This document shows positions 3,101 through 25,177 of a DNA stretch of 38,531 bases, piece after piece. Both the position numbers and the translations under genes were made by a program. How positions within the stretch are numbered: the stretch's first letter is position 1; the number at the start of each line of letters is the position of its first letter. The notes below the pieces were generated by a model. It saw only the letters and a list, made by a program, of their open reading frames with translations, searched no databases and had not been told where the DNA came from. Source of the DNA: a virus; IMG/VR virus record IMGVR_UViG_3300026484_000097, positions 1-38,531 of that record; one strand, 5' to 3'.

Positions 3101-5640
3101 AAGATTTCTTCCATCTTTTCTTTTTCTAATTCTAAACTATCAGACTTAGCTAAATCAGGAGTATCTAATTTAGTGTATTTAAGTTCTATTTCTCGTTTTT
3201 TAGCTTCAGCAGCAAGTTGTAGTTTTTTATCTTCTCTCTTTTCAAAATCTGCTATTTCTTTATCATTTAAATTACTAAGCTCTTGTTGATACCATTTATC
3301 TATGAGTAATAAATTCTCTTTATTACCCTTAGCTAATTTAGTAAAGTTTTCATATTTTGCAACAAGTGCGTCATACTCAGGTGATTTAGTTTCACTTTTA
3401 GTTATTAAGGTCTCTAATTTTTTATGTAAATTTATTTGTTCATGTTTTAGTCTATTTAATTCTGATTGGATTTTAATCTGAAGTTGTAATTTCTTAATTA
3501 CATCATCTGTTTTTAGATTCTCTTTACTTGTGATATTTTCAAGTTCTTTTCTGAGCGTTGCTAATTTATTCTCAGGAATATCATCTTTAAGTAATTTTAA
3601 TTGTAGTCGCAGTTTCTCGATTCGTTCAATTGTTTTAGCGCTAATTATTTCATTACCATCTGTACCAAAAAACTTCTTATCATTAAGTTTTTTGTAGGCT
3701 TTTGTTAATTCCTCAATATGTCTTCTTGATTTTTTTAACTTGTTATTATAAGCATCTATATGCTTATTATATTCTTCGAGTTTTTCTTTAGCTTTATCTG
3801 CTTGTGCAGTACCAGAAACAAAAGAGCTTTCTAAATATGTTTTATTGGCTTTTTCAAAAGTATCTTTAAGTTTAATATATTGTTCTAATCTCTCTTTAGA
3901 TAATTTTTTTATTTTATTCTCTACATCAATCTGCTTCTTCAAACCTTCTATTGTATCTGCTGGTTTAAATGTACTTTCTATGTCTCTTTTCTCACCTAAT
4001 AACTTATTTAAATCAGCAAGTGCTATGTTATAAGCTTCTGTACCTTGTTTAAGGTTTTTTAGTACTTCAACTTGTCGTTGAATTTCATCTCTGTTTGTAA
4101 AAAAGTTTGCCATTTTAGTAGCAAATGTAGAGGCAGCTTTATCAATAGATGCAATAGCAGAGTTCCACATACCTTCTATAGATAATGCTTGAATACGTGA
4201 TTGTGCCTCTAACATATCACCTGATTTTTTAAGGTTCTCTAAATGCTCTTTTAAAGACCCTGATGTAAGTCTTAAACTGTCTAGTAACTGCTTAGTCAAA
4301 ATAGGCAAACCAGAAACAGCTGATTCGTATGCTTCATCTGACATTTTAGAAACATTCTCAGCTAATTTTATAAACTCTTGATTACTTTCTTCTCCGCCTT
4401 TTCTAAGTGTATGGGCAACATGTGATTGTGTTTGAATTACTTTATCACCTGCTTTTTTACTTATTTCTTCTAAAACAGAGAAAAATTGTTTAGATGCTTT
4501 ACTTTCTTCACGTAAAAGTTTTCCGAACTTACGCATCTGTGTACCAATGGTACTAGCATTAACACCTATATTAGAGAACGCAGCAGAGAAAGCAAGTACA
4601 GCTTCTTTAGTAAGACCTAATGCTTTTGCACCAGATAAGGCGTAGTTTGCCATTGTGCCTAAGTCTTCAATAGATAACTTAGACGCATTAGCAGTGTAAG
4701 CAAGCTCTGAACCTAGAGCATGTACTTCTTCTGAAGCTAAGCCGAACGCTACAGTAAATGTAGATACTACTTTAGCTGAGTCATCAAGTGTATCACCTGT
4801 TATTCTAGCTAACTGGGTAGTTACTTTAGTTGCCTCTGCTAAGTTGCTATAGCTAACACCTGCACGACCTAAAGTTAATGATGCTTTTTGTATCTCTTCA
4901 ACCACAGCACCATAGGATATCGCAATACCATAGTTAGCAGAAGCGAGTTTAGCTGCTTCCTCATTATTTAAATCTAGAACAGCCATACTTTGATAAAGTG
5001 CGTTGTCATACTTAACAGACATAGCAATTAAGTCCGCAAGCCCTTGTGTAAGTAATTGTTGTGCTTTATATGCAGCAAGATATTCAGCTGTAGTTACAAA
5101 CTTATGCCCGAATGTTGTACCGTGTTCACGAGATAGTGCACCTGCTGCACTTCTAGCAAACTCTCGTTCTTTTATTTTAGCTTCTTCTTTGATTTTCTTA
5201 ACATGATAAGCATATTCACGTTCAGCTTGTTTATGTCGTAACGCAGCTAGACGCTTATTTTCACGTTCTTCAAGTTTTGAGCGTTCAAGAATAGCTTGTT
5301 TTATTTTACGGAGTTCTTTATCACGCTCTTTAGCAGAGAATCTATTAGCAGATATAGCAGTACGCTCTTTAGCAGCAAGAATTTCTTTCTCAATACGCTT
5401 ATTAGCGGCAAGTGCGTCTTTAGTGGATTGTTGTTTTAATTTACGTTGATACTTATCAGCATCATCTATTGATTTAAGTAATTGTTTAGCGTAAGTCTTA
5501 CGCTCAGGTATAGAAAACCCTGCGTCGAGTTTTCCATTTACCATATCTAATTGCTCAACTAGACGAGCGAATTTTCTTAAATCAGTTTTTGCATTTTCTA
5601 AGTCCACTCCGACGGAGAGAATTATATCGTCATTTTCCAT
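148..5640 (-). CDS. Tail tape measure protein with TP901-type core and DUF4214-like repeats
   Basis: Sets tail length and lies inside the tail tube until DNA ejection. Of 1830 residues, about 60-165 are highly charged coiled coil. Residues about 205-375 resemble the TP901 core tape-measure domain. Long helical stretches follow, then a hydrophobic Ala/Gly/Ile-rich segment around 1010-1065 that could insert in the host membrane. Near the C-terminus (about 1610-1655 and 1695-1745) are two Y-W-containing segments resembling DUF4214, the first reading V-L-G-R-D-A. Residues from 1752 show the common tape-measure ending F-A-E-G-G-I followed by G-E-A-G-Y-N-E-A-V-I-P-L. Such a length predicts a very long, non-contractile tail. 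The start follows an AGGAG site 8 bases upstream and lies after the frameshifted chaperone, the classic gene order. Confidence 0.95.
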   Translation of the reverse strand: MENDDIILSVGVDLENAKTDLRKFARLVEQLDMVNGKLDAGFSIPERKTYAKQLLKSIDDADKYQRKLKQQSTKDALAANKRIEKEILAAKERTAISANRFSAKERDKELRKIKQAILERSKLEERENKRLAALRHKQAEREYAYHVKKIKEEAKIKEREFARSAAGALSREHGTTFGHKFVTTAEYLAAYKAQQLLTQGLADLIAMSVKYDNALYQSMAVLDLNNEEAAKLASANYGIAISYGAVVEEIQKASLTLGRAGVSYSNLAEATKVTTQLARITGDTLDDSAKVVSTFTVAFGLASEEVHALGSELAYTANASKLSIEDLGTMANYALSGAKALGLTKEAVLAFSAAFSNIGVNASTIGTQMRKFGKLLREESKASKQFFSVLEEISKKAGDKVIQTQSHVAHTLRKGGEESNQEFIKLAENVSKMSDEAYESAVSGLPILTKQLLDSLRLTSGSLKEHLENLKKSGDMLEAQSRIQALSIEGMWNSAIASIDKAASTFATKMANFFTNRDEIQRQVEVLKNLKQGTEAYNIALADLNKLLGEKRDIESTFKPADTIEGLKKQIDVENKIKKLSKERLEQYIKLKDTFEKANKTYLESSFVSGTAQADKAKEKLEEYNKHIDAYNNKLKKSRRHIEELTKAYKKLNDKKFFGTDGNEIISAKTIERIEKLRLQLKLLKDDIPENKLATLRKELENITSKENLKTDDVIKKLQLQIKIQSELNRLKHEQINLHKKLETLITKSETKSPEYDALVAKYENFTKLAKGNKENLLLIDKWYQQELSNLNDKEIADFEKREDKKLQLAAEAKKREIELKYTKLDTPDLAKSDSLELEKEKMEEILAIEESEKDKQADLVRLEEAKQAIRANRLAEEKEYKDLMSDSYTSMIDYQIELAESAMDWGNNLEGVAGKIANVSKTINQVYVASLKGKKNEAKIDKKYTKEFEKYGKKKILTIEEQNEVTNLGNKQAQEIAANKQAILSAEIAGYSSLAGAMGNMFEEGSKGAKAFGVIQATLGIINAYTAITNAMATPPAPVGIALGALVAGQVAPIIGTLASLGGSGGSGGGASAEAGYQSQIKQNKADIELSYEPITNRLDQQIALLDAINRQGSSAALKTNSAALSFERDYALWKQDVFSGSLLAPQPSYLDREGWDNVDTWENSLGFNVFDRVGDYYTSNVWDGYGGYDDSREPTLHYGNEIQLDTNSLVEDDRLLDVLTNLINSKAYAGTLGQNAVGNEGDQSDQLAWLDKMVSELQGKINDWALSSIDTMNNLSDAADDFKDAFDSLTDSTYYADRKLKDSFEQIDKLRGDSTLPDYLSDLVYSIQSTNEFLTDDRFNLLLSKNPEDIEAQTDLLKEFGEVTGHVFKKGAKEALDYIDSIKAVSEAMAQSKQNQKDFIDSFKTDEQLTADKARKLEVSVATTTNELVSLFSTLSGGIGGLTDKELDFLTANKDLIGSFDDIIAKYDESIDTLASVIDSVQSTLDKLYGSVLGSSYTMQQYYDAMSRAMRADLTDAKAYQDLVNDAISKSSVLFDVNNYQTIKDQQFAQLMAAKQFESIQDVSVTQIDYLKYIEANTRESNAHLIAMLQALSDDINKQYTASNAIVVDTAYNEVLGRDAEAAGANYWSNQLSSGNITADNLNSTIAQSAIAYSGDGSSTGVTQSVINESKSNAIDYLANTATPQATSSTDALVHGIYQKYDLDQYQTDDSGYNYWNTQIKTGALSVSDLEATIKKAAEENLNHKVVAKFAEGGIVTAPTLGLIGEAGYNEAVIPLKDSNDPLQTKELVSAIKDLTAIVLQQAEDGRESRKLSEDQLLTLLDIEEKIT

Positions 5641-13770: not shown

Positions 13771-13801
13771 GGTTTGTCCTATTAACTTAAGGTTTATTAA
13801 C

Positions 13802-13917
13802 TAACACTCTAAAAATTGTTTCCAGTTTGTTAGCTTAACCAAACTTAAGTAACACTCTAAAAATTGTTTCCAGTAGCTTAATCAAACTTAAGTGTAGTAT
13901 CATTTTTTGTTCCCAGT
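13802..13917. repeat. Three tandem 48-base-type repeats beside the late promoter
   Basis: Two identical 25-base units (13802-13826 and 13850-13874) begin TAACACTCTAAAA and end TTGTTTCCAGT. A diverged third copy ends TTTTGTTCCCAGT at 13917. Between them runs a second repeated block, GCTTAAyCAAACTTAAG. The spacing is 48 then 43 bases. They lie 32 bases or more upstream of the late promoter -35. Such iterated sites could bind a regulator of the late operon or TerS (pac site). Confidence 0.8.
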
Positions 13918-14334
13918 TTATTGGTGGTCACCATCACCTTATCCCCCTATACTTTACTCCCCCTACCCCTTATACATTTATAGTTAATAGATGTTATATA
14001 GTAGTATAGTGAAAATTTAAAATAGTGAAAATTTAAAATGTTAGACTTAGAGTGTAAAAGTGCTATACATAATAACTATTTAATACATAATAACTATTTA
14101 GTACATAATAGCTATTTAGTTAGTACATAATCAAATAACCCTACCAAATAACCCTATTAATATAACTAATAGTTAATCCTACTATATAAGAAGATACAGT
14201 ATTTGTACATTGTATGTAAGAAATAAATCTAATGATACAATTAGCAAAAAGAATTTATAAATTTACAAACGCCTATAAATAGGGCTTTAAAGCGTGTTTT
14301 ACCTCTTAATCATACAATTAACTTAATAAAACCC
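13918..14334. other. AT-rich divergent intergenic region with minor tandem repeats
   Basis: No gene is seen here. It contains GGTGGTCACC (13923-13932), a C-rich run about 13940-13972, two tandem copies of ATAGTGAAAATTTAAA (14006-14037), three tandem copies of an 18-mer beginning TACATAATAACTATTTA (14066-14119) with a partial fourth at 14124, and two copies of CAAATAACCCTA (from 14132 and 14145). The AT-rich repeats could be a DNA unwinding element or regulatory sites. Confidence 0.6.
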
Positions 14335-14363
14335 TTGACATGCTTACGTAAATATGTCATAAT
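14335..14363 (+). promoter_or_regulatory. Rightward early promoter with embedded dyad operator
   Basis: -35 TTGACA (14335-14340), a 17-base spacer, -10 CATAAT (14358-14363). The spacer is occupied by a dyad at 14336-14359: TGACAT and ATGTCA arms flank a central TTACGTAA palindrome, with 20 of 24 positions symmetric. A dimer bound here would block both promoter boxes, so this looks like a repressed early promoter. Confidence 0.8.
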
Positions 14364-14416: not shown

Positions 14417-14902
14417 ATGGAAACATTACATAACATCAACACTGAGATATCAAACAGTAGTCATACGATTAAAACTGAGAAACAAAACAGAACTGAGTTA
14501 GTTGCAACACTTATAGATACAATGGTATCTAAATCCAAAGAGTATAAAGAAGTGTATAACCTATCTAACAAAAGAGCATATGAGATCGCTTTTGAACTTG
14601 AAGACACTAAGCAACTTGATACATATACAAAAAGAGCATTTAAAGTAGCTAAGGCTATCATTAAAGACGGTTACAAAATTAATTATAAGTTATTATCGCT
14701 TAGTCAGTGCGAACAATTGACTAAGTTCAATAAGAACTTAGTTAATAAGCTTATAGTTGAAATCAGAGAACTTGGTGAAGACGCAACTCAAGACGCAAAA
14801 AACGACTTGTATATTGAACTTGTAAAAGAGTTGATAGATAAAGGTAAAGTAACTAAAACGACAAAAGTGTTCAGTGCTAAGGTTGCAAGTGAGGCGGAAT
14901 AA
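14417..14902 (+). CDS. Helical early protein of unknown function
   Basis: A 161-residue protein. The start at 14417 is chosen because AAGGA lies 6 bases upstream; an in-frame ATG at 14381 has no such site. It is charged and almost entirely helical, with N-K-R-A-Y-E-I-A-F-E-L and Y-T-K-R-A-F-K-V-A-K-A-I, and no Cys clusters or membrane segments. It is alone on its transcript between a dyad-controlled promoter and the structured non-coding region. A self-regulating early regulator or host-takeover protein is possible, but I do not recognise the family. Confidence 0.85.
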   Translation: METLHNINTEISNSSHTIKTEKQNRTELVATLIDTMVSKSKEYKEVYNLSNKRAYEIAFELEDTKQLDTYTKRAFKVAKAIIKDGYKINYKLLSLSQCEQLTKFNKNLVNKLIVEIRELGEDATQDAKNDLYIELVKELIDKGKVTKTTKVFSAKVASEAE

Positions 14903-14914
14903 AACCGTCTCACT
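14888..14914 (+). terminator. Stem-loop at the end of the first early gene
   Basis: AGTGAGGCGG pairs with CCGTCTCACT (one G-U) around a 7-base loop that contains the gene's TAA stop. No U-tract follows directly; AAAAATACTTTTA comes next. It is therefore a weak terminator, a 3'-end stabiliser, or the first helix of the structured region that follows. Confidence 0.5.
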
Positions 14915-14928
14915 AAAAATACTTTTAT

Positions 14929-14972
14929 AAAGCCTTATGACGTTACAAAATAGTAACCTCTCATAAAGCTTT
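14929..14972 (+). ncRNA. Stem-loop 1 of a paired hairpin motif
   Basis: AAAGC/GCTTT, then TTATGA/TCATAA, then an asymmetric internal loop (C opposite CTC), then GTTAC/GTAAC closing an AAAATA loop. All 16 canonical pairs are Watson-Crick. The internal loop and top stem recur in the second hairpin at 14989. It reads as an RNA fold, or as a DNA cruciform or protein site. Confidence 0.7.
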
Positions 14973-14988
14973 TAGAATTATTTTTTAA

Positions 14989-15017
14989 ACGACGTTACAC
15001 ATTTAGTAACCTCTCGT
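14989..15017 (+). ncRNA. Stem-loop 2 with compensatory lower stem
   Basis: ACGA/TCGT, the same C-versus-CTC internal loop, and the same GTTAC/GTAAC top stem closing ACATTTA. Compared with stem-loop 1, the lower stem sequence has changed on both sides while staying paired, and the internal loop is conserved. That pattern suggests selection on structure. Confidence 0.7.
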
Positions 15018-15021
15018 CTAA

Positions 15022-15264
15022 TCGGCTTAATCTATTGTAGCAACACCCAGCGTTTGGAATAGTTGCAGAGAGTTAAATACAAATTGAAATAAGGGAACAA
15101 ATTCCCGCCTACTGTTGAAAAACCTCTTTTACGACTCACAGAAAAAACTGTGCCTTGATGAAATAGTTACTTTAAAGTTGCAAGGGTGTAGCAAAAGAGG
15201 TCGGTGCGCTGAATAAAGCGCTTAATACCCGTAAAGTGAGAATAGTAGCTCACTATGTAACTAT
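15022..15264 (+). ncRNA. Candidate large structured RNA
   Basis: A 240-base non-coding block with many stems: GCAAC/GTTGC (15040-15044/15062-15066), GGGAA/TTCCC (15093-15097/15102-15106), a 9-bp long-range stem ACCTCTTTT/AAAAGAGGT (15122-15130/15193-15201) enclosing CACAG/CTGTG (15137-15141/15148-15152), GCGCT/AGCGC (15206-15210/15217-15221) and AGTGAG/CTCACT (15235-15240/15249-15254). Two more perfect matches cross these: ACACCC/GGGTGT (15043-15048/15184-15189) and ATAGTTAC/GTAACTAT (15163-15170/15257-15264), possible pseudoknots. It has more GC than its flanks and no open frame. It does not contain the tmRNA or RNase P signature sequences I know. Phages are known to carry large ornate RNAs (GOLLD, ROOL), but I cannot match this to them. 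Confidence 0.6.
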
Positions 15265-15276
15265 ATTTTTAGCTGT

Positions 15277-15408
15277 AAAATAATCGTAAAAAATAAAATA
15301 ATCGTAAAAAAAATAAAATAATCGTAAAAAAATAAAATAATCGTAGCAAGCGGATTTTTATTTTTATTTTTATTTTTATTTTTATTTTTATTTTTATTTT
15401 TATTTTTA
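15277..15408 (+). repeat. A-rich 18-20-base repeats followed by (TTTTTA)9
   Basis: Four copies of AATAATCGTA (15279, 15297, 15317, 15336) are joined by A-rich spacers. After GCAAGCGGA come nine perfect TTTTTA hexamers (15355-15408). In RNA the A-rich and U-rich arms could pair into a long imperfect hairpin directly after the structured block. The hexamer array is likely to change length by slippage. Confidence 0.85.
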
Positions 15409-15446
15409 CATTATAAAAATTTTTACATCATAGAGATTTTTACATA

Positions 15447-15513
15447 AAACGGTTGAAATACTGTATTAATTATAGAAAACGGTTGAAATCCTGCATTATT
15501 TTGAAATTCTGTA
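15447..15513 (+). repeat. Direct repeats of the GTTGAAATnCTG motif
   Basis: AAAACGGTTGAAATACTG (15447) and AAAACGGTTGAAATCCTG (15477) are spaced exactly 30 bases apart. A degenerate third, TTTTGAAATTCTG, starts about 15499. Three copies of TTTTTACAT precede them (15403, 15420, 15437). The 15-mer GTTGAAATCCTGCAT reappears inverted at 19900-19914, so the family flanks the cassette of small early genes. Confidence 0.8.
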
Positions 15514-15526
15514 AATAAAAAATAAT

Positions 15527-15619
15527 ATTAATTAATTAATTAATTAGGTAGCAAATATTTTTAGTTTAATTAAGCCTCCATTTATGGCGGTTTATAAAAT
15601 TAAAATAGGAGATGAAATT
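15527..15619 (+). other. Leader of small-gene operon: ATTA repeats and hairpin
   Basis: A run of ATTA tetranucleotides at 15527-15546, a GTAGCAA motif at 15549, and a hairpin AAGCC-T-CCAT / ATGG-C-GGTTT (15572-15593, one mismatch, 2-base loop). The ribosome binding site AGGAG (15607-15611) follows. No convincing -35/-10 pair is seen, so the promoter for the downstream operon may lie upstream or be of a -10-only type. Confidence 0.5.
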
Positions 15620-15754
15620 ATGCTTATAATCTCATACCAACAAAAAAATGGTGTTATTACTACAATTAACACTAAAAATAAAAATAAAAAAGATGCAATA
15701 CTTAATTTATTAAGTACATTAAATTACAAAATTATAGAAATAGAGGAGAAATAA
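15620..15754 (+). CDS. Small protein, 44 aa
   Basis: A short gene with AGGAG 8 bases upstream of ATG 15620. It reads M-L-I-I-S-Y-Q-Q-K-N-G-V-I-T-T-I-N-T, has an Asn/Lys-rich middle, and ends Y-K-I-I-E-I-E-E-K. The pattern suggests two short beta strands and a helix. Its final codons contain the GAGGAG ribosome binding site of the next gene one base away, so the pair is coupled. Function unknown. Confidence 0.7.
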   Translation: MLIISYQQKNGVITTINTKNKNKKDAILNLLSTLNYKIIEIEEK

Positions 15755-20237: not shown

Positions 20238-20266
20238 TTGACATAACAAGAACCCTTTGCTACAAT
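20238..20266 (+). promoter_or_regulatory. Strong promoter for the replication operon
   Basis: -35 TTGACA (20238-20243), a 17-base spacer ending TTTGC, -10 TACAAT (20261-20266). The expected start is about 20273. It is the best match to the sigma-70 consensus in the window and shares TTTGCTACAAT with the leftward late promoter. The last GnnGTCA copy ends 12 bases before the -35, so a regulator bound there could contact the polymerase. Confidence 0.85.
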
Positions 20267-24604: not shown

Positions 24605-25177
24605 ATGAAAATTACAAATATAAAAGAGATTACAGACTTCAACGGAAATATGGCGATTGAATGTTTAATTAAAAACGCAGAGATAAAATGGGCTTTTCTA
24701 GCAGAACCTAGTGATATGTCAGGTAAGTATGAAGTTACAATAGAGCTTGACAATGAAGTAGAAGCTGAGTATATTTCACTATGTAATAAAGTATGGAACA
24801 CCTATAAAACAGCTAAAAAGCTTAAAACTAAACCACAAGCAGTCGGTTTTGGTGAAGTTAAAGATGAAGATGGTAATGAGACAGGCATTAAAAAACTTGT
24901 TGCAAAAGCTATTCATACAAGTAGAAAAGGTAAAGTATTACCTCCACCTCTTGTGATTGATACCAGTAAACAAAAAATTGATTTGAAAGAATACCCTACA
25001 ATAGGTAATGGTACTGTTGCAAATGTTAAAGTGGCTATTCAAGCGTACGAGTTTAATAAACAACATGGAGTAAGTGTTAAATTATTGGCATTACAAATTG
25101 TAAAACTTGTTGAGTATTCTGGTAGCTCAGTTAATACTGATGATTTTGATGAAATTGAAGACGACGAAGAGTTTTAA
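24605..25177 (+). CDS. DUF2815 single-stranded DNA-binding protein
   Basis: A 190-residue OB-fold-type protein. W-A-F-L-A-E-P-S-D-M-S-G-K-Y-E-V-T-I-E-L near residue 30-50 and N-V-K-V-A-I-Q-A-Y-E-F near 140 match DUF2815, the ssDNA-binding family related in role to T7 gp2.5. It ends in the acidic tail typical of ssDNA-binding proteins (D-F-D-E-I-E-D-D-E-E-F), used to contact polymerase and nucleases. AAAGGA precedes the ATG. It sits between the nuclease and the DNA polymerase. Confidence 0.88.
   Translation: MKITNIKEITDFNGNMAIECLIKNAEIKWAFLAEPSDMSGKYEVTIELDNEVEAEYISLCNKVWNTYKTAKKLKTKPQAVGFGEVKDEDGNETGIKKLVAKAIHTSRKGKVLPPPLVIDTSKQKIDLKEYPTIGNGTVANVKVAIQAYEFNKQHGVSVKLLALQIVKLVEYSGSSVNTDDFDEIEDDEEF

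Follow-up and report, generated by a model that had tools for sequence, protein, structure and literature searches.

A structured RNA behind the first early gene of an uncultured virus is conserved in structure rather than sequence

Does the gene-free interval that follows the first early gene of this virus encode a structured RNA, or is it an ordinary intergenic spacer? The window analysed here is the whole 38,531-nucleotide stretch of IMG/VR record IMGVR_UViG_3300026484_000097, a 38.5 kb uncultured virus with two divergent gene blocks. The late block (terminase, portal) occupies the minus strand up to 13726, and the early/replication block (14381-35095, plus strand) encodes an AAA ATPase, a primase, an exonuclease, a DNA polymerase and a helicase. 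The divergent intergenic region at 13782-14156 holds tandem repeats (48-nt, 18-nt x3, 16-nt x2 and 12-nt x2) and adjoins the minimum of the GC skew. The interval in question is bounded by the first early gene on one side and the next small ORFs on the other, in the following setting.

14335-14363, plus strand: sigma70-like early promoter, TTGACA-17-CATAAT with an extended -10 (a consensus match, not a mapped start)
14417-14902, plus strand: first early gene, for a helical protein of ~161 aa, with the SD AAGGAT at its start
15022-15264, plus strand: core RNA, the stretch that prompted the original proposal of a possibly new large structured RNA, followed here by pairings, energy and covariance match
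15276-15408, plus strand: AT-rich block of four copies of TAAAATAATCGTA and then a TTTTTA array, between the core and the next gene in this phage only
15560-15604, plus strand: hairpin directly 5' of the SD of the next small ORF (z -2.84), containing TATGGCGGTTT

The sequence features on which the original prediction was built proved accurate. No ORF longer than 35 aa lies inside 15022-15264, its GC content (0.387) exceeds that of the 200 bp upstream (0.32) and the 200 bp downstream (0.145), and all of the proposed perfect pairings, including the inner hairpins, are present at their positions. Among them are pairings of 9 bp (15122-15130/15193-15201), 8 bp (15163-15170/15257-15264) and 6 bp (15043-15048/15184-15189). 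Judged against chance alone these pairings are just mildly unusual; a 9-bp perfect stem occurs in 9.75% of shuffles, and the MFE of 15022-15264 alone is unremarkable (z -1.34), with 20 of 200 shuffles equally good. The possibility that shuffled sequences fold as well is thus nearly realized for this stretch alone but not for the full element, since 14903-15270, which adds the upstream tandem hairpins to the core, has a z of -3.1 and none of 100 shuffles was as good. The boundary shifts likewise: the core does lie inside the stretch first named, but the true start of the element is at about 14929, 5' of the start first given. An RNA from the minus strand was also considered and folds about equally (z -1.86); the plus strand was preferred because it is the operon strand and because the hairpins of relatives lie over plus-strand SDs. 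The energy of 15022-15264 alone is close to that of shuffled sequence; support for the RNA is comparative more than energetic.

Relatives were gathered from IMG/VR and three MAG contigs with alignments of the first early protein and the AAA protein; one of the MAG contigs carries the label Helicobacteraceae, which is a contig label and not a host assignment. Neither a DNA-level search of GenBank phages nor the first small gene as lone query gave a match, and the first-gene alignment, searched against 399 genomes from the order to which L050 belongs, returned the L050 contig and one weak partial match only. Two pattern scans of viral contigs yielded chance matches, mostly in coding sequence, or already-known loci. 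Homologues of the first early gene were found in L018, L024, L025, L026, L028, L029, L040, L041, L045 and L050, and its product represents a helical protein family of at least 11 phages without a Pfam or PHROGs family or a PDB relative. An AF2 model of this protein reached a pLDDT of 75, and Foldseek found no significant match for it, the chance-level matches including several ParB/Noc DNA-binding domains (E ~1).

The position between the first early gene and the AAA-ATPase gene is occupied by a structured RNA in at least 10 further related phages. In nearly all relatives read in detail, the first gene is followed, towards the AAA gene, by a noncoding interval of ~350-550 nt, L029 being an exception in that one extra gene precedes the interval. 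Two of the relatives, L023 and L049, carry the core of the window at the same place, and the elements of this core are listed below.

15108-15125, plus strand: single-stranded motif CCTACTGTTGAAAAACCT before the long-range stem, with counterparts at 5610 in L023 and 1299 in L049
15122-15201, plus strand: H1, the 9-bp long-range stem, ACCTCTTTT (15122-15130) with AAAAGAGGT (15193-15201)
15137-15152, plus strand: H2, hairpin CACAG-AAAAAA-CTGTG within H1, with 2 double changes and an invariant A6 loop
15153-15185, plus strand: H3, stem CCTTG (15153-15157) with CAAGG (15181-15185), with 3 double changes
15163-15264, plus strand: pseudoknot, ATAGTTAC (15163-15170) with GTAACTAT (15257-15264), paired 8/8 in three phages
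15206-15221, plus strand: H4, hairpin GCGC-TGAATAAA-GCGC, its terminal pair being C-G, G-C or A-U in a three-phage hand alignment
15235-15254, plus strand: H5, hairpin AGTGAG-AATAGTAG-CTCACT just 5' of the pseudoknot strand, matched by hand

The order of these elements is common to the window, L023 and L049: the motif CCTAYTGT-RAAAA, the 9-bp stem, the A6-loop hairpin and the second stem are followed by the motif AAATAGWTACTT, the closing strands, a GCG-hairpin, a second hairpin and a strand that can pair with ATAGWTAC. A covariance model made from L023 and L049 alone, without the pseudoknot, recognized 15107-15264 of the window at 56.8 bits (E 2e-9), the next best match scoring 10.7 bits. A sequence-only model from the same alignment gave no match in the window up to E 10. 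It is the structure of the core, rather than its sequence, that these related phages have in common. Once the pseudoknot is included, the three-way alignment has 99.2% paired cells and 16 double-changed pairs (7 of them in the long-range stem, 1 in the pseudoknot), counts that rest largely on one contrast and have modest formal power because the alignable core is confined to three phages, two of which are 91% alike. Controls in which the partners were slid by 1-3 columns had 29-48% of cells paired and at most 4 double-changed pairs, and shuffles averaged 5.6. The alignment made with this covariance model leans towards the structure that the model encodes, but the pseudoknot formed no part of it, and L023 and L049 were located through neighbouring proteins and not through structure.

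The proposed 9-bp long-range stem is borne out, with 7 of its 9 pairs changed on both sides yet still paired in the register of the model. The proposed 8-bp pseudoknot also holds, since all 8 pairs form in the window, L023 and L049, with one compensatory change (U-A for A-U); when the 92 nt downstream were shuffled, its strand appeared by chance with a probability of 0.006. The proposed 6-bp pseudoknot (ACACCC/GGGTGT) was rejected, as it overlaps H3 and on inspection has no counterpart in L023 or L049. H5 has counterparts with changed pairs in both relatives; the model left it unaligned, and it was therefore matched by hand in the window. On the other relatives the covariance model found nothing above noise, so their cores are either too diverged or different; these phages have the same plan without an alignable core.

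Upstream of the core, the element begins with two similar hairpins.

14929-14972, plus strand: tandem hairpin 1, with an outer stem, the inner stem CGTTAC-AAAATA-GTAA and the 3' bulge CCTC
14989-15017, plus strand: tandem hairpin 2, on the plan of hairpin 1, CGTTAC-ACATTTA-GTAACCTC

Hairpin 2 repeats hairpin 1 at the sequence level, and the stretch that holds both (14921-15021) has a z of -6.4. Their plan, which consists of an inner stem, an AGUG/AAUG loop, a 3' bulge and an outer stem, covaries across 14 copies, and a model of this bulged hairpin finds tandem copies in L018, L024, L025, L028, L040, L041 and L044. When the window sequence was left out of the model and 3 kb were searched with filters off, hairpin 1 was the top match (15.9 bits, E 0.0065) and hairpin 2 was matched weakly (14985-15021, 7.8 bits); with default filters across the whole 38 kb, neither was reported. 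In L024 and L025 the SD of the next gene, AAAGAGG, could pair with the 3' bulge/stem ACCTCTTT seen in the tandem hairpins of L024, L025, L040 and L041. This pairing was set aside, being absent in L044 and possibly due to chance.

Comparable evidence comes from the wider family. The group of L024, L025 and L044 shows 35 double-changed pairs by RNAalifold, and a GUGUU-loop hairpin with a covarying stem, represented by 8 distinct sequences, is present in nine phages. Each of the 14 intervals is more stable than the mean of its shuffles (z -1.2 to -7.6), and in 12 of the 14, with L045 and L050 the exceptions, none of 100 shuffles was as good. Chance folding of an ordinary intergenic spacer, to which the energy of 15022-15264 alone (z -1.3) would lend itself, is contradicted by the covariation, and the structure-only recognition and the low energies in relatives also speak against it; it is very improbable. 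Compensatory changes occur in the core, in the group of L024, L025 and L044 and in the hairpin families, so that the lack of covariation which would have told against the proposal is clearly not what the homologues show; they have the covariation-supported helices expected of a conserved structured RNA. The structured RNA itself is almost certainly real.

The RNA does not fall into a known Rfam class at the thresholds used. Rfam at gathering score gave no match in the window or 12 relatives (ROOL, GOLLD, RNase P, group I and II introns and others), and at a relaxed threshold there was none in 14900-15620 of the window or in the L049 and L025 stretches. No tmRNA or RNase P signature had been seen in the original prediction; in agreement with this, ARAGORN and Rfam placed no tRNA or tmRNA at the element (tRNAs appeared only elsewhere, in L024) and the Rfam gathering-score search for RNase P was negative. 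At curated thresholds, this rules out ROOL, GOLLD, tmRNA and RNase P. The L024 tRNAs lie at 3681-3839, near the late/early boundary, and comprise tRNA-Trp and tRNA-Asn genes and a third, weaker tRNA-like match. GOLLD and ROOL are large structured phage RNAs with pseudoknots and of unknown function (PMC12286853), and the present element resembles them only in kind, being unrelated at Rfam thresholds. Unlike them, it is shorter (~340 nt in the window), lies in an early operon rather than near tRNA islands, and shows no sign of multimers. With its place in the early gene block, its conservation at the level of structure and the lack of an Rfam match, the element supports the original proposal.

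The position of the element bears on what it may do. The promoter at 14335-14363 is the best sigma70-like promoter of the area, with the element ~0.6 kb downstream, and good TTGACA/TATAAT-type sites lie 5' of the same gene in L026, L029, L045 and L050. No intrinsic terminator was found within any of the 14 intervals. Given such promoters upstream in the window and several relatives and the lack of intrinsic terminators, the interval is probably part of the early mRNA.

A possible model is offered by the put RNAs of HK022, which are ~70-nt two-stem elements downstream of early promoters, one of them ~270 nt from the start site (PMC9378689). Like putL and putR (PMC9378689), the element would place two adjacent bulged stem-loops in an early transcript, with a long early gene block downstream; this holds for most phages examined, and in the window the early block extends 20 kb on a single strand. 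By analogy, early-transcribed tandem hairpins might bind RNA polymerase and cause pauses and terminators to be ignored along the early operon. Compared by architecture, however, the hairpins here follow the first gene, are larger, vary in stem length and sequence, and precede a conserved pseudoknotted core that has no counterpart in put. Moreover, the plus strand of the early operon has no intrinsic terminator in 16.7-35.2 kb. Two more strong sigma70-like promoters (20238-20266 and 24747-24775, 11/12 matches) inside the early block suggest more than one early/middle transcript. These two observations weaken simple antitermination; a put-like action, the most specific form of cis control considered, is conceivable but rather unlikely.

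The 3' end of the element in five relatives also bears on control in cis. In L023 (5783-5850), L049 (1470-1540), L024 (5605-5695), L025 (5690-5755) and L044 (6808-6872), a long hairpin with the conserved tip GTTGTGAG-YTATGGGAG-TTTYRCAAAA continues from this end and pairs the SD of the next gene, which is a sign of cis control; the window hairpin at 15560-15604 is a possible counterpart. In this hairpin and in its cis position the element is like structured leaders and intercistronic regulators, such as riboswitches and autoregulatory leaders; it differs from them in that Rfam gave no riboswitch match and that the next gene is a tiny ORF without conservation. The case for control of a ribosome-binding site is weakened in the window by the AT-rich block of ~300 bp that parts the core from the next gene and by the lack of conservation of the tiny ORFs beyond. 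As a form of cis action, control of the translation or processing of the next gene is rather doubtful.

The non-conserved ORFs would suit a noncoding RNA that is cut out of the early mRNA and acts in trans by binding or titrating a host factor or a defence system. The ornate structure would suit it too: its stems change fast while the loops AGUG, GUGUU and A6 are kept, a pattern of stand-alone phage RNAs. Nevertheless, no promoter or terminator of its own was found for the element, the mRNA context is always the same, and in five relatives the RNA merges with the SD hairpin of the next gene. Such an RNA in trans appears rather unlikely.

The AT-rich block raises the further possibility of a replication primer or origin RNA, in the manner of ColE1 RNA II, in which a structured transcript would set up initiation at nearby AT-rich repeats. 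The minimum of the cumulative GC skew falls at 14-15 kb, and four 13-bp repeats and the TTTTTA array lie 3' of the RNA (15276-15408); the TAAAATAATCGTA copies and this array are possible origin iterons or protein-binding sites. The AT-rich repeats of relatives, however, lie upstream of the first gene and not 3' of the RNA (similar repeats, AATAATCG, are found 5' of the first gene in L018), and the skew switches where early and late transcription diverge. An origin function is therefore improbable.

A cis-acting RNA of the early operon is favoured by the lack of an intrinsic terminator between the RNA and the downstream genes, and the element probably acts in cis within the early mRNA on the genes behind it. 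What the computation shows is the fold, its conservation, the fixed place and strand, and that no intrinsic terminator precedes the next gene; transcription, cis action and any partner are what we infer. A transcript from the early promoter would pass the first small gene and form the two tandem bulged hairpins, then the core, in which the 9-bp long-range stem would enclose a hairpin and a second stem, with two hairpins following and the 8-bp pseudoknot tying the interior of the core to its 3' end. The tandem hairpins may serve for docking, with RNA polymerase or a protein of phage or host as the partner, and the core with its pseudoknot may set the state of the downstream mRNA, so that expression of the downstream early genes would be affected in cis during transcription. 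Beyond put-like antitermination and control of translation or processing, the remaining likelihood of cis action falls to unspecified mechanisms. More speculatively, the element could be a two-part nascent RNA machine of a new class, in phages unrelated to HK022, that reprograms host polymerase or ribosomes as infection starts, possibly with the first early protein as partner.

The finding adds a covariation-supported family of structured RNA, absent from Rfam 15, in phages known from metagenomes only, and illustrates how a fold barely distinct from shuffles in energy becomes demonstrable with two homologues. The RNA is located where phages seize host gene expression, which makes it a compact and testable candidate for an RNA-based takeover early in infection.
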